Shown: in pieces, positions 4,568 to 52,371 of the stretch | Layout: every line of letters begins with the position of its first letter | How positions within the stretch are numbered: the first letter of the stretch is position 1 | Assembly: GCA_963402885.1 (NCBI GenBank) | Contig: OY727099.1 | Span: 11,892,001 to 11,956,000 of the forward strand | Reading direction: 5' to 3' | DNA: 64,000 nt | Source: Antedon bifida | Taxonomy: Eukaryota > Echinodermata > Crinoidea > Comatulida > Antedonidae | Notes under the pieces: generated by a model | Databases searched by the model: none | The model's input: only the letters and a program-made list of their open reading frames with translations | Told to the model about the DNA's origin: nothing | Program-made: the position numbers and the translations under genes

Positions 4568-10562
<5,995 letters not shown>

Positions 10563-21729: not shown

Positions 21730-21835
21730 CTCAGGGGATATGGGTAATACCGCATGCTAACGCATGCGCAGACTCTCTGAATCGAATTTGATTTACCGGA
21801 TGCTGATCCTAGTATGAATGATAATAAATGTGATA

Positions 21836-23300: not shown

Positions 23301-23439
23301 AGAAGAAAAATGGTTCCAAAAAAGAGAGCGAAGTTCCACCACCTCAACACACGTACGTAGTACCAAGCTTTAATGATTTTGCGCCCTCTATATTAAGTAT
23401 CTGCATAAACTTTTTACCGTGTACGAAAACAGAGCATGT

Positions 23440-24223: not shown

Positions 24224-27200
24224 ATGGGAATAGATGCAGTAATTGCAGTGTTGTTTGCTGGATTCCTAACATTGAGAACAATCAATACAGTGTATTCTTC
24301 ATCTGTTAATGGTAGGTATTTATGGCTTTAATTTTATTTATTTGATCAAATAATGATCCTTTCTTTTTTATTTCAGAATATCAATATAAACATAACATAC
24401 TGGTACTTCAAAATGTTCAGCCTTTTGTTGTCTTTTCAGAAACAACTAAAGATTTTAAACAAGAAAATAGCTTTAAAAGTAGACATTTATTGAGTGTTGA
24501 AGAAGATTGGGTTGAAGAAACTCCTATTCCTGAGGTAATTGTGACTGACTTTAGTAACACTTACTGCATATGGACTGTTTTACACAGTCAACTAATCAGT
24601 GAATAACAAAAAGTGTGAGTGATAGCATTTGCAATGGATTTTCTGACAGAGGTGAAAAGTTGTAGGCCTAATAAGCAGTACTGTGCAATCAAGACTCTGT
24701 GAAATATACTGTGTGACTAGGTATGCAGAAAATTGGGCTCTTCACACAGAAAACCAGCGGGGTGTACATCTCCTCATTCGGTACTGGGAAGGCCTACCCG
24801 AAAAAAAGTAAAGTGCAATTACGACTTTAAATTGTTTATATATTACGTGCACGTTTTTATTATACCACGTCCATACTTCTATGATATCACATACCATGTC
24901 ACAAATTTGTTTGTTTTCTTTTCCACATTAAAGTTGACTTATGAAATATCAGGTGACACTTATCCAAAGGCGGTGGATGGCGGTAGTGTACTTGAGTACA
25001 CCTGCTTACTTGTCTACAAAGTGGAGCCAGAACATACTGCAATCAATATCTCATTTGAGGTAATGTTTTTTCGTTTATAAGACTTAATAAGAATTTTTTC
25101 ATACATAAAAGTATACTAAACTTCATCAAATGATCCAAATCTGTAACTACGTCAACTACAGACTTTTTTCTGGTCAATTTGTTTATTAGGGTTTTGCCTT
25201 GTTTATTTAACAATAACACTTTCTTTTTACACTTGTTTTAAACAGCGCATAGAGACTATTACCATGTATTTTGCACTATACATTTAAAACCATTAACTAT
25301 CCATGGCACTTTTAATTGAGCTGTAATTTGGTGGTTGGCAATGCTTTCCTTCCAATCTCAAGGTCCAGGGTTCGAATCCTGACCATCACGATATCACTCA
25401 TTCCAATGTCATGGTTTTAACTCATGAATCTTTGAAAAAGAAAGAGATACAAATGAGACTGCAGGCTACAGTATAATATGATCAGTAATGTAATGCTGTA
25501 TTGTAAATGCTAATTATGAGCATATGAACTGTTACTATTCTTATAGCATTTTCTTCTGAAGACAAATGGCCACGTCATTGATACTTAGTATCAGTTGACT
25601 TCACTGCTGGTGTACTCAAGATCTACGTTTATACCATGCTATACACTATTTTGATTATTGAGAATAAGAGATATGTTACTCAAATATTTATGATAATAAC
25701 AAACAATATTGTTTCAGGTTGATCTACCATTCAGTTCATTTCATGAGGATTCTTTCAGCGTCACACTTTATAGTGAAGCCCTTGGTATTTTACCATTACT
25801 CCCCAACCAGACTACTGATGACAGTGTAGATGATGAAGAGTCTAAAGCTGCTGTGAAGATTCTCCACCTGTTTCACGATCCCATTGTAGAGAAGGTACTA
25901 CAGCACTATAATTAATTTTGTATGATTCATTTACTATATATAAACGGCAATGTTAATTAGTCTTACATTGATCTGAATGATAAATGAAACTAAGCCAGGA
26001 CCTTGGTTGGTGTCATTTTTATCATTGATCAAGGGCTTCTCTCGTCCAGTGGAAAGATATACGTCTGAGGCAGATACTAGATGCAGGGGCTGCCATAAGA
26101 GTCAGCAGTGCTGTGATTTCAAATGCTTGATAGAAACCAATCTTACATTTTTGTACCAACATATTATTTTTAGAATTATGGTTTTTTTTATTTGTCTTCT
26201 TTAAAGAGGGTAACCCATATCAGTGATATCACTGCTTTCCACTGGGGCCCTCTAATCACTACAATACATAAACGTTAGACTACAAGCAAAACAATCACAC
26301 ACATACAAACTAATTACTAAAAGAAAGTCTTGCTTTGTTCAACACAGCTATATGTGAAAGTGGATATATCAGAACCAATGTGGGTTAACTTGACGGAGCC
26401 ATGGCAGCGTCCAGATTGCTGGTGGGTGCCTGCCTTTCCAGACTGCTATCAAACTGTATATTCCGGTAAATAATAATATTATGTAGCAATAGGCAATTTA
26501 GAAGATACTTGCTTGATGTTAATAGGTCGGTTAACAAGCTAAATAGAAAACATTACTTGCTTGATGTTAATAGGTCGGTTAACAAGCTAAAATAGCTTGT
26601 ATGACCCTTCCTTTTCTTTCTTCTTTTTCAATACTGTAATTACTGTATAGACATTTGGGGGATCCAAGTACGAATAATGTTTTTTTGTATTAAAAAGATA
26701 AATGTAATGACAATATTAGGGATGATGTGCTTATAAGTGTGAAAAAGTAAACTTGCAGTCAAGAAATGTACTACCTCAACTTCAAGCTCTATTAGAATTA
26801 TTTCTTTTAAACATGTGTTATAGATATTTGTATTTTTTACATTCTATTCAACAACAATGACTCAACAATTGCAGGATGGGAAACTTCTAAACCAAGTCTC
26901 ATAAGGTAGTGACGCTATATTGAAAATCTTGAGACTATAATGAGACTATAACAGGATTTGAACCAATGACTCTGGGATTGTAAAGCAAGTCAACCATCAC
27001 AGTGCCACTACTTATTTATTTAATTATTGTACAGTAACCTCATTGTAATTTTTTTCTATTTTGTTAATGGTGGTCTTAATGCTTAAAGTCTATTTCTAGA
27101 CTTATTTTGACCACCATCCACATTTGTATATACTTAATATTTATTTTCAAACTCAAATAATTAAATTTATTAGATTGAGTTTTATTTCCTCAGATTGTGT

Positions 27201-30200
27201 GTTCTATGATAGATCACCAGAACAAACCTGGGAGCCAGCTTATTGCTATCAGTTTAAAGTGTCAGACTGTCTTCCATTTAACACTACTTCTGAATGTTAC
27301 TACGTCGATACAACATCATGTCTCATGGCGTTGATCGCAGATGCAGAGCGCCCTCAGGACATGCTATGTCCAACGGATGTCAACGAGACTGATTGTATCC
27401 AGATTAATGATCGCGGATTGTTCTTTACTCAGTATGACTTCAGTGTTCCAACTGTTGCTCCAATCCCTGAAACATACGAGAAAGATTTTTGTGGCATGTC
27501 TATGGAAAGCATTTGGAGTATGTAACACATTTCATAATGAATTTTGTATTTTTGGATACCATCTAATCACTAATTAATATGTTTACAATATATTTTTAAA
27601 ATTTTGTTATTACATACGCATCCAACAGCGAGCACAAACTCGCCAATTACAGAATGGATAAACTATTTTATAATTTATTGTGCTTATAAAGTAAGTCTCA
27701 TTTGAGGCTTAGGGGATGGAGTTGAAAGAGGCGTTAGTTACAACCCGGGAACTAGGTCAGGATTGAACTCCGGACCTTGGGATTGGAAGGCAAGCACGTT
27801 AACCACCAAGCTACAGCTCCACTATTTGGCAGAATATCTTACATTCAAACATGTACCAAATGTTTTTAAGCTTTACATCTAATGTCCATTGTTATGATCC
27901 TTTAACATTTCTACCTTAATTATCATTTGTTTTCAATTTAGTGGCCGAGGAAACAGCATATGAGCGGCAGTATACATACGACAGTACGATTGAGGAAGAT
28001 GAGAACGGTTGTGTGCGTGTAATTATGCGTATAAAACCAATTATTACAACACCGCCACCAACATACAATCCATATAAAGCTTTACGTAAGACCGAGAAGT
28101 ACATAAATGCGAAGACTTGTATGAATGCAAACACTACAGGATTCTACATTCAACCTATTCAACCAATTGATTGGAAGGATTTCAATATTACAATTTTGTT
28201 CACTGGTTGGTGTTGCTACTTATCATTCACATTTATTCAGCAATATATAAATATTTACCAATTATTGACATTATTACAGGGATCTTACAGAGACAAGTGT
28301 CAATTAAATGATTATTAAAAATGTTCACAATTTCTTAAACTAGATATTATTTTCTTGGAATTGTATTTATGTATTTTATCTTATTACCGTAACTTCAGAA
28401 AAGAGTGTCTGTTTTACATGAATATAAATAAAAAATCAATTTATTTTTTGTTTACAAATATCATAATTGATCTTGTTTTAACTTTAAATTTTTAGGTGAA
28501 ATTTTTAACTATGTTGAAGTAAATCAAGTTTTAGTTTCAGAAGTTTATGTAAACATAACACAAAATACTAAACTCATTAACCAAACAAAACGTGTATTTG
28601 GTAAGTAAAGTTTTTAAACTTCTTTATCTCTCCTTTTAATAAGTTCAATTTGAGACAGGCACCATTTTTTCCACTTGTTTTGTGGACGAAAAAAAGTTAA
28701 TTTATCTAAGAAAAAATTTTTTTATTTTTTAAAAATTTTTAGCTGTTCAAGAAATACCAATAAAAAGACCAGGTTACTGGGTATACAATAACCCAACATT
28801 TTCTGAATATCATTTTATCCTGAAACATGAACAAATACTTCACCATGGTGTTTTGGTCCACCCCGAAGCGTTCAGCCGCGGTTTCACCATGACGATTGAT
28901 GTTCCAAAGGTTGATGATGTATACTTGGCCAAATTTGAAAACATCACACCTTGGTGGAAGACGGGAAAACATTTTGTATCGATATCAGATTACCATATGT
29001 TCAATTCAACCTATAATACGAATGGTGATAAAATAAATTTGGAAACTGTAATAGATAAGTTGGAAGGTTATTATGATGGGGATAGCAGATTGCCAGATAT
29101 CACTTCTGAATGGGTTGTCGAACAAAATGATTACGGAGAAGAAATAATCGTCCAGTGTATATTTACGGTCACACCATTTCTCAATACTAAAGACGTTGTT
29201 AGGCGTGACGATGGCAGAATAAATTTCTATTTGTATTCTCGAGTTCTTTCATCGGTGGTGACCGATGATGTTCTTAAATTTTCTATCAAAGCCGATTTTA
29301 AGTTCCCACCAGGAGATAAACTAATTCTGTCAGCGTCCAGGAACAGCACCGTGACTGTTCAACCGTTTGTGCCACGTATTCCATCAGTCAATGCCACGCA
29401 AGAACCAGACTGCCAAGATGACATCACATATACTTTTGAACTATTCAACATTCTGGAATTTTCTATCAAGGATATTTGGATGAACGTGACCTGTCCCGAT
29501 TTAGTTATCATTCCTTCGACTCTTGAAGTTGAAATTATTCATGATGTTAACGTCACAAGTGATAGCAACGCTGATGTCATGCTTACTACAGATCAAACAT
29601 ATCACATACACTACACAGAGTTAGCTCCTCAAGTCCTTGCAAGAGGGCAGCAGACATTTCGACTGGTCAATAACGGTGTTGCGCCTCATTACTCCAAAGT
29701 GTATCTTTCATTTCGCAAGGATAATAAGGCATTAGTCCTTCCATATTTGGCAGGTGTCAGTAATGAACTGTTTACACCCGGGATTGAGTATATTTTATAT
29801 GGGCGTGATTTGATTGAGGAGGAGGAGGAGGTGATAATATTGACAACACCAATGAGTAGGACTACTGTGTCGTTAGGGAATGCCACAGCTGAAATGCCTG
29901 TTATGGGGGAGGAGGAGGAAGAAGTAAGTGATGGCGTGGAAGAAGAGATAAAACCTCTAATGTACTTGATGCCTGTTGGGTCGAATGCAACCTTCATTAT
30001 AAATATAACAGTACCAGAAATAACCACAGAGGTCAGTGGTAAATAGTAGTACATTGAAGCTCTGTCTACACTATCAAACTTTATGTGACAAAGTTTGATG
30101 TGCCCAAATATGGTATTTATATGCTTAAATATGGTAGTGATATGACATCATGTCCATTATGGTCACATCATAGTTTGTTGTCACATAAAATTTGATAGAC

Positions 30201-33200
30201 AGAGCTTATATTGGTGTGAGTATAATATTAGTATAGGCCTATGTTTATCTTCATTTTATTTGTGTATATTATAGTAGTTTTTATAGTCAGATTTAATCTT
30301 TAATTATGCAAAAAGGGACTTTATTTCTCCCATTCAATAATATTTCATCTTTTTTTTTAGATTGAGATTGATTTCAGAATGCCAGCAGCAGTGTTAGCTG
30401 TCTATTATTCAAGAATCATATTTATTGGTGGAAATATAATAAACCTGGATATGGATGATCTGGAGAAAGGAAGCAATGTCATGGGTAAGAATGGACATTG
30501 ATCGACCTTTTTTTCTCCTGTCAATGGTTATTTTTATTTCAATATTATTTATTTGAATACAGAAAAAGTTTACATAATATAGACAAAAAAGCAACTAGAA
30601 TTATATTGAGGATCTATACTAGAAAAATAAATTATTCTTGTCACGTATAAGACCCTTTTAAACTAAAATAATATAATTAACTAAGTAACCAGATAAAGTA
30701 ATAAATCAAATATTGAATAAATAATAAAAAGAATCAGTAGTACGACATAAAATTAATCATTATTTACAGAAATTAGGTATTTTTTAGCATTGGCCCGAGA
30801 CACAATAATAGATTTTGGTGTCTTAAGGTTGTCATTAAGTCCATTCTATAAGCGTGGTCCGGAGACAGTAATGAAGAATTCTAAAGTTTTTAATTTAAAC
30901 GAGGGTATTTGTAATTGATACCGTTTAGCAATGCTACGTAATTTATGTGTGTGGGATTTTGTTAGTTTATTAAATCATTTTGACGTGGTCACTGGTAAAT
31001 TGTTATTGTAGAATTTGAAAATAAAAGATACAATTTGTAAATTATATAAATTTAGGAACAGAACAATATATCATATTTTTGTTGGTTACTCCTTTTGTTT
31101 TCCCTTTTCTCGTCTTTTTGTATTTGTTTTCGTTCCCGTTTTTTTAAGTGTTGAGGGCCTCATGCATGTCAGCCCCAGCTGTTTTGAGTCACCCTCATTA
31201 AACAAAGTTTAATAAAAAAAATAAATATAAAAAAAAATAAATAAAAAAAAAAAAAATTTTTTTTTTAATTAGAACCCAGAAAATTGAACCCCATTTATTT
31301 TGTATTTTTTTAATTTATTTCTTTAAAGAATCATGGGACATGGCTACCAGAACTAACTTAAAGCAGAAACTGGGAAACTTAACCAATATTGCAGATAATT
31401 TAAGAAACGAAAGTGGTAAGTTTCCTTAATATTCTTAATATAGCTACATATCACATAATTTCAAAGTAATGTACCTGTATTATACCCGTATTATTTATAC
31501 AAGTCTGTTTAATTGACTTTGGTAAATATTTAGTCTATACTTAGTTTGATTATATTCTTCTTTTCTTATAGATAACATTGTTCTTGAGTTTAATGTTGTG
31601 CTCCTGGATGAACAAGAAACAGTTTTAAAAGATTCAGAACATGAGTTTAAGACCACCGTGATTTACACAAATGGAAAAGACTTGGTACAGCAACAAAGTA
31701 TAGCAGTATTAGAACCTGACATCCAAGTGTTCTTGAGAGTGGCTAATGAAAGTACAAATGCAGATCCTGGTAGGTAATACTGTATACTGAAATTACTAAT
31801 CCAGCTCACATACTGTACATGTTAGCATTCTTTTACAATACATGGTCATAATCAAACACTTAATTCCTATAACTTGAATATTCAAGAGTTTTAGGTGTAC
31901 AAAATTAATATTAATGAAATATTTCAAATTTTGAAATGTTCAGTTTTGTTATTACTGGTAAGAGGTACCCACTTCTGTGTTGGGACATTGGCCCAAGGCT
32001 TTCTCTTGGGATTGTTTCCAAATTGTTACAAATAAAAATAAATTTCTTCAATGCTGTATCAAATATGAGTGAGTCGTGGCCGAGCGGTTAAGACAGTGGA
32101 ACCGTAATTACGTAGCCATAACATCGGCAAGGGTTCGAGGCTCACTCGCTCCATGGTTCTGGTGGTAGAACGAGTCTTCTCGGATAAGGACTATAAACCG
32201 TAGGTCCAGTGTACACATCTGGCTCATGTGCACTTTAAAGAACCTAGTAAATCTTTTGAGACGAGTAGGGGGTTACCCCGGTGTACTAGTCCACACAAAC
32301 ACAGCCACTGTCACACACAGCCACTGTGCAATTGGACTGGACCGTTTTATAGAGGTGTTTACCACCTGTTGGTCCAGATACTCCACTAACAGAGTTAGTG
32401 AGAAGTTGAATAAATAAAAATAAATAAATAAATCTGTAACTTTTTATATAGATTTAAGTCATCTTTGTTTTTATAAATTGTATGTAATGTTGAAATTTGT
32501 AGCCATAACATCGGCAAGGGTTCGAGGCTCACTCGCTCCATGGTTCTGGTGGTAGAACGAGTCTTCTCGGATAAGGACTATAAACCGTAGGTCCAGTGTA
32601 CACATCTGGCTCATGTGCACTTTAAAGAACCTAGTAAATCTTTTGAGACGAGTAGGGGGTTACCCCGGTGTACTAGTCCACACAAACACAGCCACTGTCA
32701 CACACAGCCACTGTGCAATTGGACTGGACCGTTTTATAGAGGTGTTTACCACCTGTTGGTCCAGATACTTCACTAACAGAGTTAGTGAGAAGTTGAATAA
32801 ATAAAAATAAATAAATAAATCTGTAACTTTTTATATAGATTTAAGTCATCTTTGTTTTTATAAATTGTATGTAATGTTGAAATTTGTAAGCTGGGATTTC
32901 TAGCTTGTGAGCCATAGAGCTTCATTGGCTCTTTGATCCTGGACGTTTCTTGTTGAAAAAATAAATGAATGAAAATGATTTTTACTTTTTTGTACTAGGT
33001 GAAATCTTCCAGTATTATATAAAAGTGAATCACTCGTCAGTATCACAGTCACCAGCCCATCACATAAATGTTACCATCCATCTACCGTATATGGTCATAA
33101 ACAAACACTTCCTACCTTATGAATATTCAAGAGTTCCATTCAGAGGTCAAATATTCGAACCCGGCTTTGAACATGAAAATGATGAGATTATGTTGTTGTA

Positions 33201-39200: not shown

Positions 39201-42200
39201 CATTGTGCACTGTGAGCAATGTATATACAGACACAAGACCAATGGCTTTACATCCCATCCAAAGGATGAGGCAATGAGAGTGAAGCATCTTGCTTCAAGC
39301 AACATAGTACAGACAGGCCTCAGACTGTTGTTTTCTCGTACTAGTCCGAAATCCCTTAATACCGTTACACCATAAAGTTCTTTTAAACATTTGTTGACTG
39401 TTTTTGTTTTAGGTGTTCTAGTAAACCAAGCAGATAATATAGCATCACCTGAAGATTATCTCCTGTTACAGTTCATATTTACTTTAAAGGATGACCCACT
39501 CTGGAAGCAAGATGACATCATCCCCTTCACGGTATCTGTGGTGTACTACAGTGATTATGACGGACAACTTTTGACATTGATTGACAAGAATGTTGAATTA
39601 AAGGTCGTTGAACCCAGACTGATACTTAGAGTTGAGGTAAAGGCTATATGCAGATAAAAATGCTACTGAAGTTCACTATTATACTGTGCTCAAAAACTGT
39701 CACCTACATTTTTTTGTGTTTTAAAATTTAAAAAAAATGTTCATACAGTGGCTTAACGGCTATGAGCACTCACTAGCTAAACCCAGAGACCCCAGAGCCT
39801 AAGTGGCCCCAGAGAATGAGCAGCCCAATGTAACTAACCAGCATTGGGGTCCTCCATGGCTGTTTTTAATCTTTACTATTTGATTTCCAGATCCTTGATT
39901 ATAAGTGGCAGGTTGAGCAAGTACAGAACACAACAGGTTACACTTGTGTTGAGAACACATGCTGTGAAGATGGTGAGCCATGTGATACAGGGCGTGTGTG
40001 TGTCACAGACACTTCTGATATGGATAATTGTGATACTCATAGGTACTGATCCTTCACCACTTACTTCTAATACAATAATTTATCTAAACCTCTCTCTGCA
40101 CTATCAAACCTTATGTGACAAAAAATATATTGACACAGGTGATGTCATATCCCTACCATATTTGTGCACATCACACTTTTTTTTGTCAAACTAGTTTGAT
40201 AGTATACACAGAGTTAAAATGTATTCTGCAAACCTGCAAATATGTCTTCGTTTAAGTCTTTTGCATAAAAATGTATATCTATTCCATTCCAGGTGTTTAT
40301 GCTATTCTGGATTTGCATTGAATGCTGAATCCACCTGTACTGCTGTGGGACGTACTGCTGGTGATATACTGGTGTTTGGACTGACTGTATTCCACAGTCA
40401 AAAATATACTGGTTAGTTGGCCTAAATAGTGAATTGAATAGATTGCAAACGAATTCAGTTGATTTAAATAAAATATTTTCATTTCAGGTAATGCATTTGA
40501 TCTGTACATAACGTTACACAGTGACCTCAAGTCTGACCTTCTACCAGATGCTGACACAATGGGTCACATCCCTACAGATGGTTACCTTGGTAATGTGAGG
40601 AAACCACGATTAACACAAATAAGTGATAACGAATTTCAGCTTTATGTTCATCGTTTTGATCATGTAGTAAACTGCGAACGTTTTACAGTGCAAAGCGGGG
40701 CAAACTTGGCAAGCTGAGGTAAGACTCCTTGCATATATATTTGTGTACTCATACTAAGCCAGAATTGGCTGGTCTTGTCATTTAAACAAGAGTGTGATTA
40801 AATAGATAAATAAAAATAAATACAAGGCACAGCACAATTTGGTGCCTAAGCTTGTGCATATTTATCAGCCTACTAGATGTCTTAGATCAGGTGGCAAATG
40901 TCTGCTAGTAGTTCCAAAGAACTTATAACACAAGAATGTCCTGTTCGTCCGAAGCGCGTAACAATTTCGAAAGGCATTGTGGGATAGAATAGAGCTAATG
41001 GGTGGCGCCATTGTGAGCCATGGAGTAGGGCGCCCGCATCAAATTAGAAAGTCAAAATCATAGAGGGGATCTGCTAATACTCTAGGGGGATAGAGCAATT
41101 GACTTCCTAGTTTGGAGGGGGCGCTGCTCCATGCTGTGAAATGGCGTCGCCCAGTTTGAACTTTTAACCCTGTACTTCCGATACTGTGTTTTGAATGCAA
41201 ATTGAAGAACAGGAGATTCTTGTGTTATAAGTTCTTTGGTAGTTCCTAAGACTAGGACATCTACATATTTAGCAACTCCAACTCTGGAATTCCTTACCAA
41301 TTTCAATCAGACAGTGTACTACTCTAAACTCTTTCAAGACCCAGTTGATGTCTTTCCTTTTCAAACAAGTTTTTCATTAATTTAAATTATTGCCACTTCT
41401 CGTCTATTTTAATTTATGTACAGCGCATTGAGAACTTGCTTATATGCGCTATATAAGAATGAACTATTATTATTATTTTTAACTGAATGATCAGAATAAG
41501 ATGTCTAGATTGTGAGGACCAAAATTTACCTGTAATGAAATATTCTTTTTGTAGGCAACAATGAACTACCGTTCTTCAAAGCCGTACGACACGCCATTCA
41601 ACATTAAATCACGACTGTATGACATGAAAGACATGAATGATACAATCCGATTCCCATTATTCGCTCCAGCCCCAAGTGTCCGCTTTAAAATGTTACCATC
41701 AAGTGGTCAGTCTAGCCCAATCAATTTTGAGGTTTTCTCTTCTTCTACGGCTCAAAATGAAGTCATGGTGAATGTACGAGAAGAAGATAAAATTGTGTTT
41801 CAGGCCGAAGTTGTTATACCAAAGATTAAGTGCAGTATGACTTTTAAATTAAATCTACCAGAAGGTAAAAGATTACTTGATTACTTCTTAAATCTGGAAC
41901 CATAATCCATACTTAAGACTACATTGATACATTAAGTACAATAAAGAAAATCAAATCACTTCATTGGGTTCTTCATTTTTATTCATTTCTTAGGGAGTGG
42001 CATTACACTGGAAAATGTTACCATGGTTTCTATGGGTACTGGAATAGATTTTCCTGAAACTAATTTTGGTGAACCACAAGTGACTGACAACATTGAAGGA
42101 CACAAGTTCTTTTTTGCCTATTTCCCTGATATACACAGTAAAGCAAACTCATTAAATACTCCACGGGTATGTTATTTTAATTTTCTGAAATTTAAATATT

Positions 42201-45200
42201 TCAAAATATATGTACTGTATATTCGTCAATAGTGTTGACAAGTTTTACCATTTCCTGTACTTATATGGTGAAGTAAACTATATGCTGTAGTTTATTTCAA
42301 AATAATGTAAATCAAACTCATTAAATACTTTTGGGTATGTTATTTTAATTTTCTGAAATTTAACTATTTAAAATATGTATATTTCTCAAAAAATGTAAGT
42401 CTTCACTAGTATCTTGTGAAGAAAACTACATAGTTTATTTTAAAATAATTTGTTAATTTATATACTGATATCAAACAATATTACAAAACAAAAAAAAATG
42501 TGTTTTTAAGTCTTTAGATTCCACCAAGCAGCAAATGTTCAAGTCAATGAACAGAGAACAGCAGCCATACCCAACAATCCCAGAATGCAATGCTCTCAAT
42601 TCCAGTTTATACGAGCAGAAAATTCTTCTTGGGTGTTACCATAATAAAATGTCTTACTTTGGTGGTTTTATAACAGACATACACCCGTCTTTACCTTTTT
42701 ATAATCTATCTCAAGTGATGACAAGGCAGTTATGTTTGGATCATTGCAGGTAATGTTTCTCATAGACTATATAAACAATTTCATTGTCATAAGTTCCACA
42801 ATCAACAAATTGATTATTGAGTGACAGAACTATGAGGCCTACTAGCTAGCCTACTGTAAAGTAGTGTCTGTGTGTGACAATGGCGGACTAGTACACCGAG
42901 TGTCTCTCGAAAAATGTACTAGGTTCTTTGCACATAAGCTAGATGTGTACACTGAACCTACGGTTAATAGTCCGTATCCGAGAAGACTACCACCAGAACC
43001 ATGAAGCAAGTAGGGATTGAACCCATGCCAATATATGGCTACAAATATGGTTCCACTTTCTTAACCGCTCGGCCAGGCCACTCACTTGCTCAACATACTG
43101 TACATGCTATCAAGAATCCACCAATAAAACTCCTTTTTTCATTCAATAAATCAGCTATAGTCCATCAATCAATCAATAAACCAATGTATTGATGACTTTC
43201 AAATCAGTAATAGTGTGTATTTATATTTCATAGTGATAGAAGATATGATTACGCAGGCCTGCTGAAGGGTGCTATCTGTTTGTGTGGGACTGAAGAGCAA
43301 TTCATGCAATACTATGAAAATAGTAGAACATTTGAATTTAATGGCACTCTACATCATGCAACCCTTGATCATTGTAGTACACTCTGTACAGGTACATAAA
43401 GCTCTGTCAAAAAGTGTGATGTGCCCAAATATGGTAGTGATATACCTAAATCTGGTAGTGATATGACATCATATTTTTGTTTCACATAATGTTTGATAGT
43501 GTAGACAGAGGTTTGATAGTGTAGACAGATGTGCCATATATGGACATGATATGATGTCATCATATGACATCACACTTTTTTTGATAGTGAGACAGAGCTT
43601 TAGACATACTTTTTTAGACATGTCAAATGTTAAATTACTTTTGGTAAATGTGTTAGGGCGTGCCACTACTGTAAGCCCTTGAATACTCCTTATTCATTTG
43701 ACATCCTAGAGTTTAGCCCTTTTTCATGTTTTATATTTCAAAGTAAAAGTTTCTTTGTTTTTATTATTTTTTTTTTTTACATTTCTTTTTTCTTTGTTTA
43801 TAGTTCTATTATCAATTATTAATGTTTTGGAGGCAATAAATATTTATTTGATTGAATTTTGTTCTTTTTTAAAGAAGTATGTATCGATAAAATACATTCT
43901 TTTCTTACGTAACCAAATTACATTGTGAATGTTGTGTCTTTTAGGTGAAAATGCCTCGTGTGGGTCGATGGAATTTGCTTTACTGTATGGTCCAATACCT
44001 GGATCTGTTCCTAAGCAACAATGTGACTGGTATTCAGGCTTGTATGATGAAACTGAGGTATGGACATTATCTAAATTATTTCTAAAGCTCTGTCTACACT
44101 ATCAAACTTTATTTGACAAAGAATGTGTCCATATGATGTCATATAACTACTATTTGAGTATATCACTACCATATTTGGGCACATCACACTTTTTTTTGTC
44201 AAACTAGTTTGATAGTGTAGACAGAGCTTTAGTTAAAGGTGGGATTATACTTACTTATATTTTTTCATTGTCGTATATATTTTATTTATATTTAATTCAA
44301 TTTAAATACAAGCAAACTGTAAATTTAATCATAATATAGATACCAGGCCACCTCATTGATAACAGCACAGATATTTAATTTTAATATATTTGAGAAATAT
44401 ATAATTTCATTTTCAGGATGTATTTGTGGTTGAATTCAGTTTATCTATTCATTCATTGGCTACCAAGGGTATAGAGGAATACCTACACTTACAAGTAACA
44501 TACGATCATGGAGAGAACAAAACAAGTACACTTCTACCGTTAGCACCCTATAAAATAGAGGTATGCACATTAAATACAGTATATATAGTACATATTGTAC
44601 AAAACAAGTACACTTCTACCGTTAGCCCCTTATAAAATAGAGGTATGCACATTAAATACAGTATATATAGTACATATTGTACAAAACAAGCACACTTCTA
44701 CCGTTAGCACCCTATAAAATAGAGGTATGTACATTTATACTTTCACTCCTGAGGCCGATTGAAGCATTTTGATCAAACTCAACAGTTCTTTTCAGAACTG
44801 TATGCGTGGTGTACTGCAAACTATATATCATCACATTTATATATCTTAGTATCTATATCGACAAGAAAAATACATTTTCAAATACAATTAAAATTACAAC
44901 ATGCAATTATTAAATTGACATCAAAAACTTAAACTTTATGTATTTATTCTGTCTTTGATATTGAAATGTTGTATGTTGATCGATCTGATTATTGGTAACT
45001 TGAATTTAAACTACATTCATAATAAAATATCTTTATAAATAGGTATGTACACTTATACAGTATATATAGTACATATTGTTCGAACTCAACAGTTCTTTTC
45101 AGAACTGCATACATGGTTTATTGCAAACTTTACATCATCACATTTATACTGTCTTTGATATTGAAATGTTTTTTGTTGATCGATCTGATTATTAATAATC

Positions 45201-48200
45201 TGAACTTAAACTACATTCATCATAAAATGTCTTTATTTGTAGACGGGGATAGTTAAACTCTTGATGAATGTTTATGTATCTCCAAAAATGAGTGGCTATG
45301 TTCCAGGGTATGTTGTTTTACATTATTAATACAAACATTTTAATGTGTTCTGCCTTTAATATAAGAGGTATGATACAACATTAAAAAACACTTCTATTGT
45401 AAAGTACAATTCATTTTATACAGCATAAGAAATTCAATTTGTTTTCATTTTGAGACAAGTTTTTTACTTCTAATCATGACCCCAATGATGGCATTCCTTT
45501 CTCTTATTTACCTTCTCTTGTTTTTGTATTGTGTTACTGTTTCTTATTGTTTATCATTCTTGTAATAATTTGTCTTAGCATTATTGAATAATTATAATAT
45601 TATATATAATATAGTTCAAAGTTTCAACAAATAATATATTTTATATTTTTTAGGGATTATTTAGAATATTTTACAGAGGTCCGTCATGCTGCTCATTCAA
45701 CTGTGACTGCGAGGGATGTTTACATTTTATGGATGTTGCCTAGTTACATAGAGTATGTAAATGTAACGAATCACCCATCACTACCATTTAAATATAGACA
45801 CATTGAAGCGGTAGAGAATGTTGAAACTGACCCTAGAGTTGGAATCAAGTTTTATGTAAGTGTAATTAAATTGAAAATAGAGCATGAATACACCAAGTGT
45901 AAAAAGAATGCATTGTGTACTGTATATATTTTTACTGTATTTCTTCTTCTTTCTATGGACAAATTTGTTCTCAGTATTATTTTGCTAATCTACTTAGTTA
46001 TATGTGAGTACCTTACAATCAAAGTAATTCCTTACTTAATTACTGTACAATTTTTCAATTAACAGTACAATTTTTTAATTGACTCTACAATTGTTCAATT
46101 AACTGTACAGTTTTTCAATAAAATGTACATTTTTTCAATTAACTGTACTATTTTTCAGTTAACTGTACAATTTTTCAATTTTGTTTTATATTACTCTTCA
46201 GTTAAAATGAATCTAATTTGTTTTTTGAACAGGTGAAAACCTTATTCCATGATGACGTGATAGGCTTCCACTTTATGGTGAGACTGGACCCACTTCACAC
46301 CCTTCCACAGGGAGAGTACCACTTAATGTCAATGACACAGGTGTATTATGACTCTTGGGGGATACACAACCATTTTGAGGAAGACTACACATTTGATGTT
46401 GTACCCCATGCTCATCCTGTTGTACCTATTAAAATTACATTTGAAGGTAGGTTCATTCCATGTTTTTAATGTTGAAAGGAAACTTGTTTAGATAAGTTAA
46501 CATTGATTTTGTTGTTGGAGCAATCAACTATTGTGTTATTTTGTTTGTATTATTATAGTTCCGTCAAAGTATACAGGACGTGAGCAATTGGATGGTGAGA
46601 ACATTTTTTTTTATAAATTTTATTCAAAAATTGTAATGAATGAATCTTGTTGTACAGTTTGTTACAGAATTTTGTTTTTTTACAGATATTAAATTGTCAA
46701 CCTATAATGTTCTATATGATGAGATTAACAACATTGTGTATGCTTGTTTCTTTAACAATACAATTAATGTGTGAGTTGATCTATATTAATTGAAATGTAA
46801 TCTAGTTTCGAAATTGAATGTGCTATACTACTACAGCCATTGTATAATACAATAATACCGTTATGCTATAATATTGCTAAAGCTATGCTAAAAAACTTAT
46901 ATTTTGGGGTTTTTTTTCAGTTACAAGGGTGGTTGTTTCATGACTGGAGATCTTCCATCCTATCTCACAGAAACACCTCACACATGTGAAGATTACTGTA
47001 ACTGCACTTACTTAGACAATCATCTGACTTTTGATAACTGTTCTAATTATGAACCACGACCCTCTAACTGCACATGTGGTTGTGTACCAGATTGTATTGA
47101 AGATATGATGTCTTGTGAAATTGACTGCTTAAATAATACATTCAGTAACACTGAGTTAAGCTCATGCTTAGCTGGTTGTAAGCGTTTTCAGGTGAACTGT
47201 ACACAGGAATGCTGCCAAGACACATGTGACAAAGATTTAGACTTGTGTCTGCTGAATAACTGTGTTGAGTGCCATTATTTTGGAAACTGTTCTGTTGAGT
47301 TGAAATGTGCGGAACAATGTATTTCAAAGAATGATGGCTGCCGTCAGACCTGTATTAGATCACCAGTAACATGCCACGAGAACTGTTCAACTGTATCATG
47401 GGAATGTTTATTAAATTGTGACCAACTTTGTGGAGAATCTACAAACACCGACTGCAAGGAGTATTGCTACTCAGAATGCCTAGCTGATGAGAACCGTTGT
47501 CTCAGCGATTGTTGTTACACAGATTGCAATGTGAATGCAACCCTTTGTACCCAGCAGTGTTCCACTGATTGTGGGAATGATGGTAACTGCATTACATCAT
47601 GTTTATTTAACTGTAATTCAACTGGATTTAACTGCAATGAAACATGTGCTGCTCAAGTTTATGATTGCCAAGATAACTGCAACCAGAATTGTTCAGTGAC
47701 TAGTTGTACAGTTATTGTAGAAACGGACTGTGCTGAGGAAGAGGTCAATGACCTCGTGGCGAACATCTTAACAAACTATAGTTTAACAAATCTACAGAAT
47801 TATGGAATTATTGGTCTTAAAAAAGCTTCTTTGATGTTGACGTCTGTAAATTGTTCCGGAAACTCTTGCACAACAGAGTTCCAGGTGACAAATACAAGCA
47901 GTAATTGTTCTGCCACAGCTACAGAATACTGCCACACAGATCTAGATTCCACTTGTGTTATCAACTGCGTTGGTCTTTGTGAAGCAACGTCATCATGTAT
48001 TGGTCAATATCTAAATTGTTTGGACACATGTGGCAGTGACTCCACTGGGACTTGTGATGTTGTCTTGTTAAGAAATGTTTCGATCGATTTCTGTTTAATT
48101 GATGCATTGAATTGTGTTCTTATTATGAGTAACTGTTATTTAAGTTGTAATTCATCAGAATCGTGTTTGAATTGTGATGACGTGTACTGTGCCAGTAATT

Positions 48201-50599
48201 ACACCCAGTGCGTTGAAATGGTTACCATGGACAACAGAACATATTCAGCAGACAATGTCTCACATCAGACTTTGAATTTAACTGATGGTAACCCATGCCT
48301 GTCTGAATGTAATCGCAACTTAACCACGTGCCAGCAAGTTTGCAGACAACGTAGTAACGTGTCATATATCTGCCATTCAACATGTTTAAGAGGCCATTAT
48401 GTCTGTGCGTCGCAATGCTTGACGTACATCAACGAACACTCTCTCTGTGGTATTGCTCCTATTACTACAAATACGAACGAAACAAACTTAGTACATAACA
48501 GTGAATGCCAAAGACAATGTGAAGATGACTTGGTTATCTGTAAACAGTTATTCTCGCACATAATGAACAGAACAGTTAATAATATTACAACTGAAAACTA
48601 TTCTCTTGCTGTTAACTGCTCGAGTTATATAGAATGTGTGGACATCTGTAACAACCTCTGCGCCAACACGCCCAGCTGCAGTATGTCTTCATGCCAAGCA
48701 CAGTGTGTTCAGGATGCAACACAAGGCGTATGTCACTCTGAAGTGAATTGTACCATTTTGAAGGTGTGCGTGGAACATACCCGGCGTCGGCGCAGAGATG
48801 CTGATTTCTTCCCGGCAGATGTAACGTTTGGTATCTCATATACGACATTTAGAAGATTAAACAAAGAACCACTTAACCATACCTTGTTGGATGAAAGTCG
48901 AAAAAGAAGAGAAGCATTTATTACTAAACAAAACTCATTTACAAGTGTTACAAGTGAATCCGATCATGGTAATGTATGGAGTAATACTTTTGATATCAGG
49001 CACAACATTCACCGGATCCGAAGGAGTTTACACGATATGAATAATACATATTTGAACATTAGTATTCAAGATGGCGGTGGGTATGTAGATTCACAATGCA
49101 CCACTAGGAATCAGCACTTAGAGTATTTAAAATGCATTGACACTTGTCTCATTTATTCTAATGTATCAAAAAATAATGTTACCGGGGTTGATGTTATGAA
49201 TAATGCCTCGCTCCAGAACACCTCTTCAAGTGTTGCATGTGATAACTGCCAGAACATACAGCCGTCGTCACATGCAAGATGTTACACATTTTGCTACCAA
49301 ACGGATTCATTTTGTTCCACTAACTGCAGCAGTAACTGTACTACGTCTAATAACTGTAGTTGCAGTGAGTTCTGTAACAGACCTCTTTCAGAATGCTTAG
49401 CAATTTGCGATAAGACTTCTCTTAACAGTTGTAATTGGTGTCGGCCACTCTCTTGTCAAGAAGACTCGTTCTGCTTGTGTGACAGAGTTTGTGTAAACAT
49501 GACATTTATCGAGGTAAATAACAGGAAATGTGTTAGCGAATCTAAGTGTACTAATTCGCAAGAAATGTGCTTCTACGACTGTGAATGCAAATTGCCGCAG
49601 TATGTATTCCGACATTGGAGAGGTAAGTGTCTTTACTTTTTATTTAATTTTGTAAGAAGTAAGCATAGTTTATTCACACTTTGGCTAATGGAAATATGTA
49701 TCAAAATTTACCATTTAAATTATCTTTTACAGGAAAATATTGATTGACTGTATGATTAGTGGCAACATTAAAATTAGAAAATTGCCTTGCTAAATGAATC
49801 CAATACTTAGTATTTAAGAACAATGTATCCGTAAATGTGAATACGGCCACTGTTAGTACATTTGGGTCGTTGGTAGCGTCCCTACCGCACAATAATACAC
49901 TGTACATGTTTATTGATAAATAATTATATTGAAATATCGCATGTGGAAGTAAAATAAGTGACGCATAGAAGGTTAACACAGCATTCTATATTTAGGTCAT
50001 TTTTTCTAAATTGTTTAATAGGATTGGATTCTAACGTTGGTAACCTCCTTGGTTTACTACCAGAGCCATACACTCTGTACGGCCTCGCACACGATGGACG
50101 CGCAATCATGCAAAGCTTTGATTTTGGTGCCACGTGGGCGGCAATATTGAAAAGTGTATGGCTGGAAGCTAAAGAAAAAGAACAATATATCGAAGCTACT
50201 AACTTTGAAGAGATTTTGAATTTAGAGCCAAATCTTGTGTTTCAATCGGAATTTCAAAATGACACTTTTGGTGGTAAGTTTTTATTGTAATGTCGAGTCA
50301 TTCTGCGCACGCTCAAATGATTAGAATGACTTTTAGATTCAAAAGCTGCGTTGCGCGTGCTTCATGAAAACGAGAGAACTCTTTATTGCAAACTAAAACG
50401 TCAAGTGACATAACGGAGAAAGATCAAGCTTATCGTGACTTTGGCTTAAATCTGATTTATAGCCGTTCATTATAACACAATTTGAAATAAAGGGTCATGT
50501 TTTTTTAATTTTTGTTTTACAGTGTCTGGTGTTGGAATCCATTTCTTAAAGACTGTCTACGAATGGAAAGTAGAGGGAACTTGGCACTGTTGTAAATGA
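24224..50599 (+). CDS. Giant secreted cysteine-rich modular protein (about 4,070 aa, about 34 coding exons)
   Basis: Not identified as a known gene. Exons: 24224-24311, 24440-24534 (or from 24377), 24934-25059, 25718-25894, 26348-26465, 27194-27517, 27942-28205, 28496-28600, 28743-30031, 30361-30484, 31329-31415, 31572-31769, 32999-33274, 33681-34586, 35196-35549, 36873-39071, 39413-39636, 39891-40042, 40293-40411, 40488-40718, 41555-41864, 41994-42166, about 42526-42749, 43234-43391, 43945-44057, 44417-44560, 45243-45307, 45654-45855, 46233-46446, 46559-46594, 46686-46770, 46921-49622, 50022-50273, 50523-50599. Phases agree throughout except near 40670 and 42515. The N-terminal hydrophobic stretch (residues 3-20) is a signal peptide; no later membrane segment or GPI signal is evident. 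Order: beta-sandwich repeats, CXC array (about 1510-2240), EGF-like (about 2330-2400), WSC (about 2680-2810), CX3C array (about 3060-3960), Asp-box tail. N-glycosylation sequons are abundant. Secreted matrix or surface-coat role is inference. Confidence 0.8.
24377..24534 (+). CDS. Exon 2 of the giant gene with two in-frame acceptors
   Basis: Both TTTATTTCAG (ends 24376) and TGTCTTTTCAG (ends 24439) are good acceptors, exactly 63 nt apart. Both keep the frame from exon 1 (phase 1) and contain no stop. The longer form would insert 21 residues just after the signal peptide. Confidence 0.6.
25320..25395 (+). repeat. tRNA-like SINE fragment in intron 3
   Basis: GGTGGTTGGCAATGCTTTCC followed by CCAGGGTTCGAATCCTGACC is a tRNA-like A/B-box arrangement. 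A minus-strand relative is at 27735-27822. Acceptor stem pairing is poor, so it is not a functional tRNA. Confidence 0.5.
26925..27008 (-). repeat. tRNA-like SINE fragment in intron 5
   Basis: The reverse strand reads GTGGCACTGTGATGGTTGAC ... GAGTCATTGGTTCAAATCC, a degenerate tRNA-like head. Non-functional. Confidence 0.4.
27735..27822 (-). repeat. tRNA-derived SINE fragment in intron 6
   Basis: The reverse strand reads GGAGCTGTAGCTTGGTGGTT, then GCTTGCCTTCCAATCCCAAG and GGAGTTCAATCCTGACC, a tRNA-like head related to the 25320 copy. Confidence 0.55.
28743..30031 (+). CDS. Exon 9 of the giant gene: DUF11-like beta-sandwich region
   Basis: 430 codons, low in cysteine and rich in hydrophobic/polar alternation. 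The frame opens at the acceptor (28743), well upstream of any Met. It contains two acidic runs (EEEEE at about 29814-29830 and 29909-29923) around a 'TTVSLGNATAEM' linker. Near the end, 'VGSNATFIINITVPEITTE' opens a cassette that continues through exons 10-13: '...LPE/MP..', 'GGNIINLD', 'DNIVLEFNVVLLDE', 'VIYTNGK', 'LEPDIQVFLRVANEST' and 'GEIFQYYIKVNHSS'. This order resembles bacterial DUF11/CARDB-type repeats. The comparison is by pattern only. Confidence 0.8.
30057..30207. mobile_element. Family A MITE in intron 9
   Basis: Ends AAGCTCTGTCTACACTATC / ...TTTGATAGACAGAGCTT. It begins 25 bp after the exon 9 donor. Confidence 0.85.
30570..31260 (+). repeat. LINE remnants in intron 10
   Basis: At 30577-30645 the frame reads 'KKATRIILRIYTRKINYS', a typical end of a non-LTR reverse transcriptase. 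From about 31075 to 31212 a CT-rich stretch, then GAGGGCCTCATGCATGTCAG, CCCCAGCTGTTTTGAGTCAC and an (A/TAAA)n tail to about 31260, matches the usual LINE 3' UTR layout. Confidence 0.5.
32067..32885 (+). repeat. tRNA-derived SINE with 387-bp tandem duplication (intron 12)
   Basis: A SINE with tRNA head (GAGTCGTGGCCGAGCGGTTA) at 32067. The piece from GTAGCCATAACATCGGC through ATGTTGAAATTT is present twice in tandem (32112-32498 and 32499-32885) with hardly any mismatch. The spurious 63-codon frames in each copy differ at only one or two positions. Confidence 0.9.
33340..33560. repeat. LINE/SINE 3' end and tRNA-like fragment (intron 13)
   Basis: AAGTGCTTAGAACATTGTATTAGGTGCTATATAAG at about 33358-33393 is the common CR1/L2-like 3' end. 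At 33478-33560 the minus strand has AGCTCAGTGATCTAGAAA ... GGGTTCAAGTCCCACCCGG, a degenerate tRNA-like unit. Confidence 0.45.
33681..34586 (+). CDS. Exon 14 of the giant gene
   Basis: 302 codons. It begins with 'GICLQAEVEYEM' and a beta-strand-rich cassette ('TVSENVINIRNATLSFI', 'VAIHEQVTYKLIIPLPPISS', 'LTMEIFLP'). A cysteine-containing half follows ('VMKPCFCYGAG', 'KFSCELKTDQMC', 'NWSCACLKE') with a dense cluster of N-glycosylation sequons at about 34290-34400. The donor is GATGATG|GTAATC at 34586/34587. An open frame continuing to 34699 is only read-through into a MITE. Confidence 0.8.
34590..34742. mobile_element. Family A MITE abutting the exon 14 splice donor
   Basis: The left terminus (normally AAGCTCTGTCTACACTATC) is eroded to CTTATCAAACTTTATGTGAC, starting within 3-5 bp of the GT donor at 34587. 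The right end TTTGATAGTGTAGACATAGCTT is intact. Confidence 0.82.
34743..34872. mobile_element. Family A MITE, second adjacent copy
   Basis: Starts AAGCTCTTTCTACACTATC right after the previous copy and ends GATAGTGTAGATAGACCTT, so two elements lie head to tail in intron 14. Confidence 0.82.
35196..35549 (+). CDS. Exon 15 of the giant gene
   Basis: 118 codons in phase 1-1: 'DIQDIEDPLEGLNLTAILEG', then 'YQVCSSLFANKS' and 'PDFCFEETIVELGMAQVVHT'. Its last 74 bp and donor are duplicated in the following intron. Confidence 0.78.
35476..35788 (+). repeat. 156-bp tandem duplication of exon 15 end plus donor
   Basis: The block from CTTCAATTAAAACTACAAG to TAATCAACAAACACT occurs twice with no visible difference (35476-35631, 35632-35788). 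The second copy contains a usable acceptor (TTTTGCAG, ends 35675) and the donor, bounding a 30-nt in-frame mini-exon at 35676-35705 that would add ten residues (GGNNHNPYQP-type). Confidence 0.85.
35962..36295. mobile_element. Family C inverted-repeat element, copy 2
   Basis: AAAGATGTATTGTCCCTTTG at left, CAAGGGACAATACATCTTTAA at right, with an AT-rich interior. Confidence 0.85.
36308..36838. mobile_element. Family C inverted-repeat element, copy 3 (with insert)
   Basis: Same ends as copy 2, which it follows immediately. A central segment of about 200 bp (36480-36690) is absent from copy 2, so it is an insertion here or a deletion there. Confidence 0.8.
36873..39071 (+). CDS. Exon 16 of the giant gene: CXC array plus beta-sandwich
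   Basis: 733 codons in phase 1-1. The first two-thirds carry about twelve CXC pairs (CTC, CSC, CNC, CNC, CDC, CRC, CSC, CDC, CHC, CTC, CNC, CEC), regularly spaced with aromatic and acidic residues and many N-glycosylation sites. The last third is cysteine-poor and beta-strand-like ('LEISFVRIEPNPVDIVDSLD', 'GYKIQHTDSSNSPAYNLTLF', 'YDGIPNTFSIGDYVDIRAHL'). The latter phrases again follow the DUF11-like pattern. No family name recognised. Confidence 0.85.
39105..39160. mobile_element. Truncated family A MITE (left end only)
   Basis: AAGCTCTGACCACACTATC then GTGTGATGTGCCCAAATAT, breaking off at about 39160. It lies in intron 16. Confidence 0.7.
39891..40411 (+). CDS. Exons 18-19 of the giant gene: EGF-like cysteine module
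   Basis: Exon 18 (39891-40042) and exon 19 (40293-40411), joined in phase 2, encode 'CVENTCCEDGEPCDTGRVCV', then 'NCDTHRCLCYSGFALNAEST' and C. The CLCYSGFAL ending is EGF/EB-like. It separates two beta-sandwich regions. Confidence 0.75.
40085..40215. mobile_element. Family A MITE in intron 18
   Basis: CTCTCTCTGCACTATCAAAC at left and AGTTTGATAGTATACACAGAG at right, with a shortened interior. Confidence 0.75.
40488..40718 (+). CDS. Exon 20 of the giant gene with apparent +1 frameshift
   Basis: From the acceptor the frame reads 'GNAFDLYITLHSDLKSD' and continues, but meets TGA at 40715-40717 just before the donor. It would leave phase 1, whereas exon 21 needs phase 0. Reading the last part one base later gives 'ANVLQCKAGQTWQAE', which joins exon 21 ('ATMNYRSSKPYDTPF') in the correct phase. 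A single extra base at about 40665-40680 therefore explains everything: sequencing/assembly error, allelic lesion or real mutation. Confidence 0.65.
40915..41238. mobile_element. CAAAGAAC-ended DNA transposon, 7-bp TSD, copy 2
   Basis: 324 bp, same termini as 7930-8338, flanked by a perfect 7-bp repeat GTAGTTC (40908-40914, 41239-41245). It lacks the internal 85-bp duplication. Located in intron 20. Confidence 0.9.
41282..41475 (+). mobile_element. LINE 3' end (CR1/L2-like)
   Basis: 41282-41380 reads 'LWNSLPISIRQCTTLNSFKT' and ends at TAA, the classic C-terminus of a non-LTR reverse transcriptase. It is followed by CAGCGCATTGAGAACTTGC, a GCGCTATATAAGAATGAACT motif and a (TTA)n tail. A 5'-truncated insertion. 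Confidence 0.85.
41555..42166 (+). CDS. Exons 21-22 of the giant gene: DUF11-like repeat
   Basis: Exon 21 (41555-41864) and exon 22 (41994-42166). 'VREEDKIVFQAEVVIPKIKC' and 'SMTFKLNLPE' followed by 'GSGITLENVTMVSMGTGIDF' repeat the cassette seen in exons 9-11 (D-x-I-x-F ... LPE ... G-I). Exon 22 ends in phase 0 at CCACGG|GTATGT. A partial copy of this exon end recurs in the intron at about 42309-42380. Confidence 0.75.
42526..44057 (+). CDS. Exons 23-25 of the giant gene: WSC domain
   Basis: Exons about 42526-42749, 43234-43391 and 43945-44057. Together: 'ILLGCYHNKMSYFGGF', 'VMTRQLCLDHC', 'RRYDYAGLLKGAICLCGTEE', 'DHCSTLCTGENASCGS' and 'ALLYGP'. The spacing GCY - C..HC - YAGL..G..C.CG - C...C..CGG-like fits a WSC carbohydrate-binding domain. 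The obvious acceptor (TCTTTAG, 42514) would give a stop in phase, so I start the exon at one of two AG sites ten or so bases downstream (42525 or 42528). Confidence 0.72.
42865..43088 (-). repeat. tRNA-derived SINE, minus-strand copy (intron 23)
   Basis: The reverse strand carries GTGAGTGGCCTGGCCGAGCG and GTTAAGAAAG, then the family tail (GGTTCTGGTGGTAGTCTTCT, ATGTGCAAAGAACCTAGTAC). Confidence 0.8.
43399..43600. mobile_element. Rearranged family A MITE (intron 24)
   Basis: Contains internal duplication: GTTTGATAGTGTAGACAGA occurs twice in tandem and the right end is repeated. It starts AAGCTCTGTC and ends GAGACAGAGCTT. Confidence 0.75.
44085..44228. mobile_element. Family A MITE (intron 25)
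   Basis: Complete copy: CTAAAGCTCTGTCTACACT ... GTGTAGACAGAGCTTTAG, with symmetrical TA at both ends. Confidence 0.88.
44417..46446 (+). CDS. Exons 26-29 of the giant gene
   Basis: Exons 44417-44560, 45243-45307, 45654-45855 and 46233-46446, with phases 0, 2, 0 and 1. 'DVFVVEFSLSIHSLATKGIE', 'EYLHLQVTYDHGE', 'KLLMNVYVSPKMSGYVPG', 'DVYILWMLPSYIEYVNVTNH' and 'VKTLFHDDVIGFHFMVRLDP' again suggest beta-sandwich strands without cysteines. Confidence 0.75.
44518..44735 (+). repeat. Tandem duplication of exon 26 end plus donor (period about 83 bp)
   Basis: ACAAAACAAGTACACTTCTA, then CCGTTAGCACCCTATAAAATAGAG and GTATG recur about 2.5 times, each with the donor site. Only the first belongs to the exon. 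Confidence 0.85.
44778..45240 (+). repeat. Diverged duplication inside intron 26
   Basis: Two blocks share CAACAGTTCTTTTCAGAACTG, CATCACATTTATA, CTGTCTTTGATATTGAAATG and TTGATCGATCTGATTATT in the same order (44778-45030 and 45078-45240). Confidence 0.75.
46033..46182. repeat. Minisatellite, unit about 23 bp (intron 28)
   Basis: About six copies of TTCAATTAACTGTACAATTTT with variants, ending 50 bp before exon 29. Confidence 0.85.
46921..49622 (+). CDS. Exon 32 of the giant gene: CX3C cysteine array with convertase-like sites
   Basis: A single 2.7 kb exon of about 901 codons. It holds more than thirty CX3C motifs (CEIDC, CLAGC, CTQEC, CQDTC, CRQTC, CLLNC, CKEYC, CLSDC, CNETC and so on) spaced mostly 5-15 residues apart, with very many N-glycosylation sites. 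No single known family fits; the spacing suggests disulfide-stapled helical hairpins. Between the two cysteine-rich parts is a Cys-free segment with three basic sites: 'HTRRRRRDAD' (about 48779-48799), 'SRKRREAF' (about 48899) and 'RIRRSLHD' (about 49013). The exon enters in phase 2 and ends phase 1 at AGAG|GTAAGT. Extension of the open frame to 49747 is intron. Confidence 0.88.
50022..50599 (+). CDS. Exons 33-34 of the giant gene: C-terminal domain with Asp-box
   Basis: Exon 33 (50022-50273) and exon 34 (50523-50599, stop TGA 50597-50599). 'YTLYGLAHDGRAIMQSFDFG' followed by ATWAAI contains S-x-D-x-G-x-T-W, the Asp-box (BNR) signature of beta-propellers and related folds. The protein ends '..YEWKVEGTWHCCK'. 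No transmembrane segment is seen. Confidence 0.78.
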
Positions 50600-52313: not shown

Positions 52314-52371
52314 ATGTTGTTATTTATGAAGTTGATGTGTTGTTTTTATTTTTTCGAACAAAGTACAACAG
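52314..52371 (+). CDS. Signal-peptide exon of the lectin gene
   Basis: ATG at 52314 opens a short hydrophobic leader (MLLFMKLMCCFYFF...) ending in phase 1 at ACAACAG|GTAAGA. No earlier in-frame ATG with a better leader is apparent. A downstream Met (MKLM) is an alternative start. Confidence 0.7.

Follow-up and report, generated by a model that had tools for sequence, protein, structure and literature searches.

Two kinds of described protein come closest to the gene reported here: animal proteins with a WSC domain, polycystin-1 being one that carries it, and prokaryotic surface proteins built on DUF11 repeats. The gene lies at positions 24224-50599 on the forward strand of a 64,000-nucleotide stretch of contig OY727099.1 (assembly GCA_963402885.1) of the crinoid Antedon bifida; this whole stretch is referred to below as the window, and all nucleotide coordinates are positions in it. 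Its predicted product is a giant protein containing repeats of two alternating kinds (A and B), and one two-domain unit of these, B2-A3, is related by sequence to the prokaryotic repeats.

The sections of the papers drawn on here ascribe DUF11-type repeats to the surface proteins of bacteria and archaea, in which they form the stalks of fibrillar adhesins (PMC9210967, PMC12617251); the family is also named, in the excerpted text, in bacterial huge proteins (PMC11573180). According to the consulted part of a 2025 survey of isopeptide domains, some prokaryotic DUF11 domains also lack the isopeptide bond, the triad of residues not being universal, and the isopeptide matches that the survey saw in eukaryotes were judged likely false positives, perhaps contamination (PMC12617251). 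As far as titles and the openings of abstracts show, the PF01345 literature concerns prokaryotes. Mostly from the same kind of text, which is not proof of absence, the DUF11/PF01345 papers listed report no DUF11 repeat in an animal, and we found no report combining DUF11-type repeats, WSC and cysteine arrays. Apparent mentions of 'DUF11' in the searched text of PMC2830187, PMC2394772 and PMC3188802 were discarded as the start of a longer DUF number.

Gene model and predicted product

A dynamic-programming gene finder followed by hand refinement gave a model of 34 exons with a single frame of 4,054 residues. Each of the 33 introns has GT-AG ends, and a single TGA closes the frame at its end, so the claim of the first-pass annotation that about 34 exons join in phase was borne out; its length of about 4,070 residues compares with 4,054 in the model.

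24224..50599, forward strand: whole gene model, 34 exons, 4,054 residues, GT-AG introns (gene finder and refinement)
24224..24311, forward strand: exon 1, candidate signal peptide (hydropathy)

The gene finder's own 31-exon path scored 494 for the real strand; the reverse complement scored 10, none of six shuffles went above 14.1, and the region 13000-23900 scored 11 for one strand and 6 for the other. Its codon table was trained on eight open reading frames (ORFs), seven of them from this gene, which makes the 494 partly circular and inflates the margin. Further support came from homology. While the unspliced six-frame ORFs of the window gave no significant match to the DUF11 profile or to the profile of bacterial B+A units described below (best E above 2), joining exons 9-13 produced a colinear bacterial match of 185 residues across four introns. 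Because this match arises only after splicing, it supports 4 of the 33 junctions; the remaining 29 are placed by splice signals and the open frame.

The product contains 213 cysteines and 124 N-x-S/T sequons (shuffled protein: mean 45.5, maximum 64 in 200 trials), and would on this count be heavily glycosylated. Exon 1 encodes a hydrophobic N terminus, a candidate signal peptide by hydropathy, which makes secretion plausible. Outside it the highest 19-residue hydropathy mean was 1.62, within repeat B2, and no transmembrane segment was evident by hydropathy (no dedicated predictor was run), in keeping with the earlier description of a leader peptide and no membrane anchor.

Match to prokaryotic DUF11 stalk repeats

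To assemble a prokaryotic comparison set, we used a typed DUF11 consensus, which yielded at least 594 candidate stretches; 300 of these were confirmed and 80 loci kept, from which 566 ORFs of at least 150 residues were taken. Animal segment 650-1200 matched a Marinicella protein (L004) among the 566 ORFs at E 7.5e-12. The narrower segment 860-1055, searched against 567 ORFs, matched L004 (E 7e-13), a second Marinicella protein, L006 (5.7e-9), and then L007 (1.6e-6), L002 (3.3e-5) and L031 (1.4e-4). The part of the gene involved is as follows.

29966..31702, forward strand: B2 repeat (residues 862-997), exons 9-12; colinear with L004, L006, L031 and L002
31703..33796, forward strand: A3 repeat (residues 998-1150), exons 12-14; bacterial match, PDB profile match, DUF11 register

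Specifically, L004, which was chosen after the fact, aligned with residues 865-1049 at 32.5 bits, against 0.4 for the best of 500 shuffles (147 of which reported any match) and -5.2 for the reversed protein. L006 reached 26.0 bits (best shuffle 1.9) and L031 13.6 (-0.4). Two profiles were started from the unit of L004: one built on 73 near-full bacterial units (31 loci) scored 18.3 bits at 865-1045, with no shuffle above 5.9, and the other, iterated over all domain matches, scored 19.0 (shuffles 4.8). The same unit as query also led to a Roseomonas plasmid protein, which gave 7.0 bits at 928-1064 against -0.7. The B2-A3 unit shares 24-27% identity with four bacterial proteins, its long loop included, and the resulting five-row alignment has 11 invariant columns. 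When a profile of these five rows was compared with PDB at E up to 1, the sole match was 9IFR (E 6.5e-4), although this match leans on the four bacterial rows of the five. In the part of the source drawn on, 9IFR is the crystal structure of DUF11/CLIPPER (PMC12617251).

Besides this dependence on bacterial rows, several results weigh against a DUF11 relationship. L001 alone was not convincing (6.3 bits; best shuffle 4.7). With the animal unit as a single sequence, hhalign gave B2-A3 only 27% against the B+A profile (E 6.7e-4) and a probability of 9% against DUF11, compared with at most 0.5% for 15 shuffles. The general DUF11 profile scored 5.6 bits at A3 while shuffle controls reached 6.6; four of its five weak matches fell at A2, B2, A3 and A6, and the fifth in the region rich in CxC motifs. 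Pfam and NCBIfam returned no DUF11 for the animal protein (Pfam at E up to 10).

Other searches were likewise negative: DUF11 was not reported for the B2-A3 unit by Pfam at E 0.01, the animal A3 row alone gave 0 families at that threshold, the B2-A3-B3 segment had 0 matches in PDB (phmmer, E up to 10) and none in plasmids (tblastn), and the typed consensus matched nothing in plasmids or viruses. The A3 alignment gave 62 pattern matches in viral contigs, none of them relatives, and a joint MAFFT alignment of five repeats was poor and was set aside. Among the bacterial proteins themselves, L004 and L002 scored above the Pfam cut-off for TRAP_beta (22.9 and 31.6 bits; cut-off 22.4), a hint that TRAP-beta may be a eukaryotic relative of the DUF11 fold.

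Taking both sides together, the similarity at residues 865-1049 is, as far as sequence comparison goes, of homology grade and in register with members that Pfam accepts; this holds for B2-A3 only. The first-pass annotation had said that recurrent phrases follow the order of prokaryotic DUF11 and CARDB repeats: the colinear 32.5-bit match supports the former, while the latter found no support, there being no Pfam CARDB (PF07705) match in the animal protein (the bacterial relative L002 does carry CARDB).

Such similarity could be explained in other ways. The repeats may belong to an animal E-set or Ig-like family, related to integrin alpha or TRAP-beta, that converged on DUF11-like motifs and has no special tie to prokaryotic stalks. 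We consider this unlikely, if the best of the alternatives: no integrin or TRAP family was found by Pfam at E up to 10, the bacterial match runs colinearly through a two-domain unit including the long loop, and up to E 1 the profile matched nothing in PDB but the DUF11 crystal structure. As for integrin alpha itself, hydropathy shows no evident transmembrane segment either. Slightly less probable again is that an adhesin gene was recently acquired from bacteria by horizontal transfer and then gained introns, becoming a lineage-specific domesticated adhesin. The closest matches are indeed bacterial (L004 and L006 among the 566 ORFs), but this statement is biased, the collections searched being prokaryotic, plasmid and viral only, and an identity of just 24-27%, 33 introns and strongly diverged repeats argue for an old gene.

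Isopeptide triad

We compared the A repeats with prokaryotic domains at the three positions of the isopeptide triad. Among 638 prokaryotic domains the residues are conserved at frequencies of 0.89 for Lys (n 583), 0.86 for Asp (n 628) and 0.92 for Asn (n 588), and among 41 sampled rows (40 domains and the consensus) they occur in 36, 34 and 34, respectively. By contrast, none of the six animal A repeats has a complete Lys-Asp-Asn triad in the MAFFT alignment: the sites read G/V/gap in A1, Q/V/N in A2, L/I/L in A3, F/D/N in A4, V/D/gap in A5 and K/W/H in A6. This reading depends on a single alignment in which the third site is gapped in A1 and A5, which counts against it. In three aligned repeats of Marinicella L004 and L006, Lys and Asp are kept, the third place being Asn in two and Asp in one. 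Given 0/6 complete triads, the animal repeats look like isopeptide-less, DUF11-related stalk repeats with inserted cysteine modules.

Layout of the A and B repeats

Outside B2-A3 the repeats are weaker and were partly assigned by eye. Self-comparison of the protein revealed weak internal repeats, pairing 1981-2042 with 995-1053 (E 2.6e-4), 2263-2314 with 938-990 (2.6e-3) and 2858-2916 with 1012-1065 (2.7e-3), where E-values refer to a single target and the search used 78 query windows that overlap. Read by eye, the repeats alternate as A and B units; the CxC array, the EGF-like cluster and the WSC domain lie within or between them:

24934..26368, forward strand: A1 repeat (residues 83-190), exons 3-5; DUF11 core register, score reached by 14/50 shuffles
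29345..29782, forward strand: A2 repeat (655-800), exon 9; weak DUF11 register, score reached by 4/50 shuffles
33797..37048, forward strand: B3 repeat (1151-1590) with cysteine-bearing insertion; N-terminal part in B+A register (6.6% probability), C-terminal part by eye
38228..38689, forward strand: A4 repeat (1984-2137), exon 16; self-similarity and DUF11 register
38690..39636, forward strand: B4 repeat (2138-2338), exons 16-17; similarity to B2, 0.3 bits to L004, hhalign equal to shuffles
39607..41641, forward strand: A5 repeat (2330-2494), cysteine cluster inside; 0.2-bit match, score reached by 4/50 shuffles, exon 20 frame inconsistency
41642..44560, forward strand: B5 repeat (2495-2844), split by WSC; by eye against B2, hhalign equal to shuffles
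45243..46594, forward strand: A6 repeat (2845 to about 3016), exons 27-30; self-similarity and DUF11 register, score reached by 1/50 shuffles

In hhalign comparisons A3 and A4 exceeded all 50 shuffles. Three points speak against extending the assignment to every unit: the shuffles that reach the scores of A1, A2, A5 and A6 (as listed); the failure of B1, B4, B5 and the stretch 405-590 to do better than shuffles; and the fact that, although all six animal A segments span the core columns of DUF11, as do 6/300 shuffles, they were picked by eye for the DUF11 motif, which biases 6/6 upwards.

Cysteine arrays, WSC and other modules

The only family above any Pfam cut-off in the 4,054-residue protein was WSC (PF01822), with one domain at 30.3 bits (cut-off 27.8), and WSC alone passed when segments and single repeats were searched against Pfam and NCBIfam. 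This domain had been called from the sequence beforehand, as had two kinds of cysteine array, and cysteine spacing statistics corroborate both kinds.

37046..38173, forward strand: CxC cysteine array (residues 1590-1965), 34 Cys; 12 CxC against 3.2 expected
39942..40347, forward strand: EGF-like cysteine cluster inserted in A5 (sequence reading)
42688..43964, forward strand: WSC domain (2686-2765), exons 23-25; Pfam PF01822, 30.3 bits
46921..49622, forward strand: exon 32 Cx3C cysteine array, 117 Cys in 901 residues, three furin-like sites (spacing statistics)
48782..49024, forward strand: three furin-like sites, RRRRR (residue 3666), RKRR (3705) and RIRR (3743) (pattern match only)
50022..50599, forward strand: C-terminal exons 33-34 with one Asp-box-like motif, SFDFGATW (sequence)

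The CxC excess is located in exon 16. The array of exon 32 is of a different kind, being enriched in Cx3C (43 against 14.7 expected) and Cx10C (35 against 14.8), and depleted of adjacent cysteines (2 against 14.9) and CxxC (4 against 15.0). Cysteine spacing was not unusual in exon 6, and in exons 14-15 the sole excess was Cx7C (4 against 0.8). An EGF-like domain assignment for the cluster in A5 was rejected for lack of Pfam support (the EB module appeared only at E 4.9), and the region is kept as a cysteine cluster. SFDFGATW resembles the Asp-box consensus; in PDB the best match of this tail, a GH74 xyloglucanase over the motif, was not significant (E 0.16).

It could be asked whether the locus holds two or more genes, with exons 1-31 encoding a DUF11-like/WSC protein and exons 32-34 a separate cysteine-array protein. 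We found no homology tying exon 32 to the upstream repeats, which speaks for such a split, but the splice sites between exons 31 and 32 are good and keep the frame, and exon 32 lacks, by reading, an ATG with a signal peptide near its start, which leaves the split about as improbable as recent transfer. Downstream, the neighbouring gene starts at an ATG of its own (52314), encodes a hydrophobic leader and continues with an SRCR exon, and so gives no sign of read-through from this one.

Neighbourhood and integrity of the locus

Around the gene, in what is animal DNA, lie Jagunal, two tubulin ORFs in the opposite orientation, and exons for SRCR, C-type lectin and F5/8 type C domains. The tubulin genes lie at 4568-6749 and 11948-12919 (reverse strand), the second looking divergent, with an unusual C-terminal tail by reading, and 52314-63500 holds the downstream gene or genes (hydrophobic leader, SRCR, at least two C-type lectin and at least two F5/8 type C exons). 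A minisatellite with a 16-bp unit is present at 13601-13813 and again, some 1.6 kb away and in the opposite orientation, at 15395-15594. Rfam and tRNA scans of the window found nothing.

An element resembling a short interspersed nuclear element (SINE) upstream of the gene (22660-22930) has two copies of about 94-95% identity in the intron spanning 32067-32720 and one further copy (80%) in another intron. A short inverted-repeat element, similar to a miniature inverted-repeat transposable element (MITE), occurs in more than 10 places in the window, several of them in the gene's introns (e.g., 34590-34720). Such elements, common to introns and flanks, argue against contamination and, together with the 33 introns, agree with the initial view of an intron-rich animal gene. 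One MITE-like copy comes to within 10 bases of exon 14, on its 3' side.

Two-copy tandems of 99-100% identity occur with periods of 275, 387 and 156. Those at 22771-23294 (100%, period 275) and 32112-32888 (99%, period 387) lie over the SINE-like element and are possible assembly duplications. The ends of exons 15 and 26 are tandemly duplicated with their donors (35474-35788, 100%; 44517-44735, 95-96%), as either spare donors or assembly duplication.

A point against an intact gene is exon 20 (40488-40720), which joins in phase only if ended at a weaker donor (40594). Past 40594 the open frame runs into a TGA shortly ahead of a stronger donor (about 40719), and the end of this stretch reads, in another frame, like the matching part of a sister repeat. 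The inconsistency is an assembly error, a damaged allele or a real short exon. That the whole gene is broken, misassembled or non-functional is the least likely of the alternatives, since, for all the exon 20 conflict and the near-identical tandems, 4,054 codons stay open through 34 exons and the duplications lie in introns and flanks, except for the copies of two exon ends.

Discussion

The explanation we favour, with a confidence just short of even, is that of a rod-like protein, secreted to the extracellular space and heavily glycosylated, with DUF11-related, isopeptide-less stalk repeats and cysteine modules, most likely with an adhesive or matrix role. By analogy with prokaryotic DUF11 stalks, the repeats would form an extended extracellular rod that spaces and carries binding modules, namely the WSC domain, which probably binds glycan, and the Asp-box-like tail. 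Without an isopeptide bond, the rod may owe its stability to disulfides and glycans. The long Cx3C array, whose spacings would suit helices facing one another, might link chains by disulfides after furin cleavage.

The single parts are of known kinds, and orthologues have likely been deposited as uncharacterised proteins. Somewhat more tentatively, we propose an undescribed animal family of giant secreted proteins with CLIPPER-type repeats of the prokaryotic adhesin-stalk kind as their basis, in which the isopeptide bond was lost and disulfide modules were gained, so that a tension-bearing rod of microbes was re-engineered for the extracellular matrix or coat of an animal. If true, the DUF11 repeat family is used in animals and its isopeptide bond is dispensable, and replacement of a covalent cross-link by disulfides or glycans becomes directly testable. 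Because the match appeared only after splicing and over a two-domain unit, single-domain profiles may miss such relatives.

The crinoid protein resembles animal WSC proteins (Kremen, the polycystin-1 family) in having one WSC domain above the Pfam cut-off, and differs from them in lacking matches to CUB, Kringle, PKD and LRR as well as any evident membrane region. Its best sequence matches over residues 865-1049, the long loop included, are Marinicella L004 and L006 (among the 566 ORFs), which unlike the animal gene are uninterrupted prokaryotic ORFs with several Pfam DUF11 domains. Like the prokaryotic stalks of DUF11/CLIPPER (PF01345) and DUF7507/CLIPPER_2 (PF24346), it appears to arrange alternating repeats in tandem within a long protein; compared with those adhesins, its gene has introns, its repeats lie below Pfam detection, and cysteine-rich modules and a WSC domain are inserted among them.
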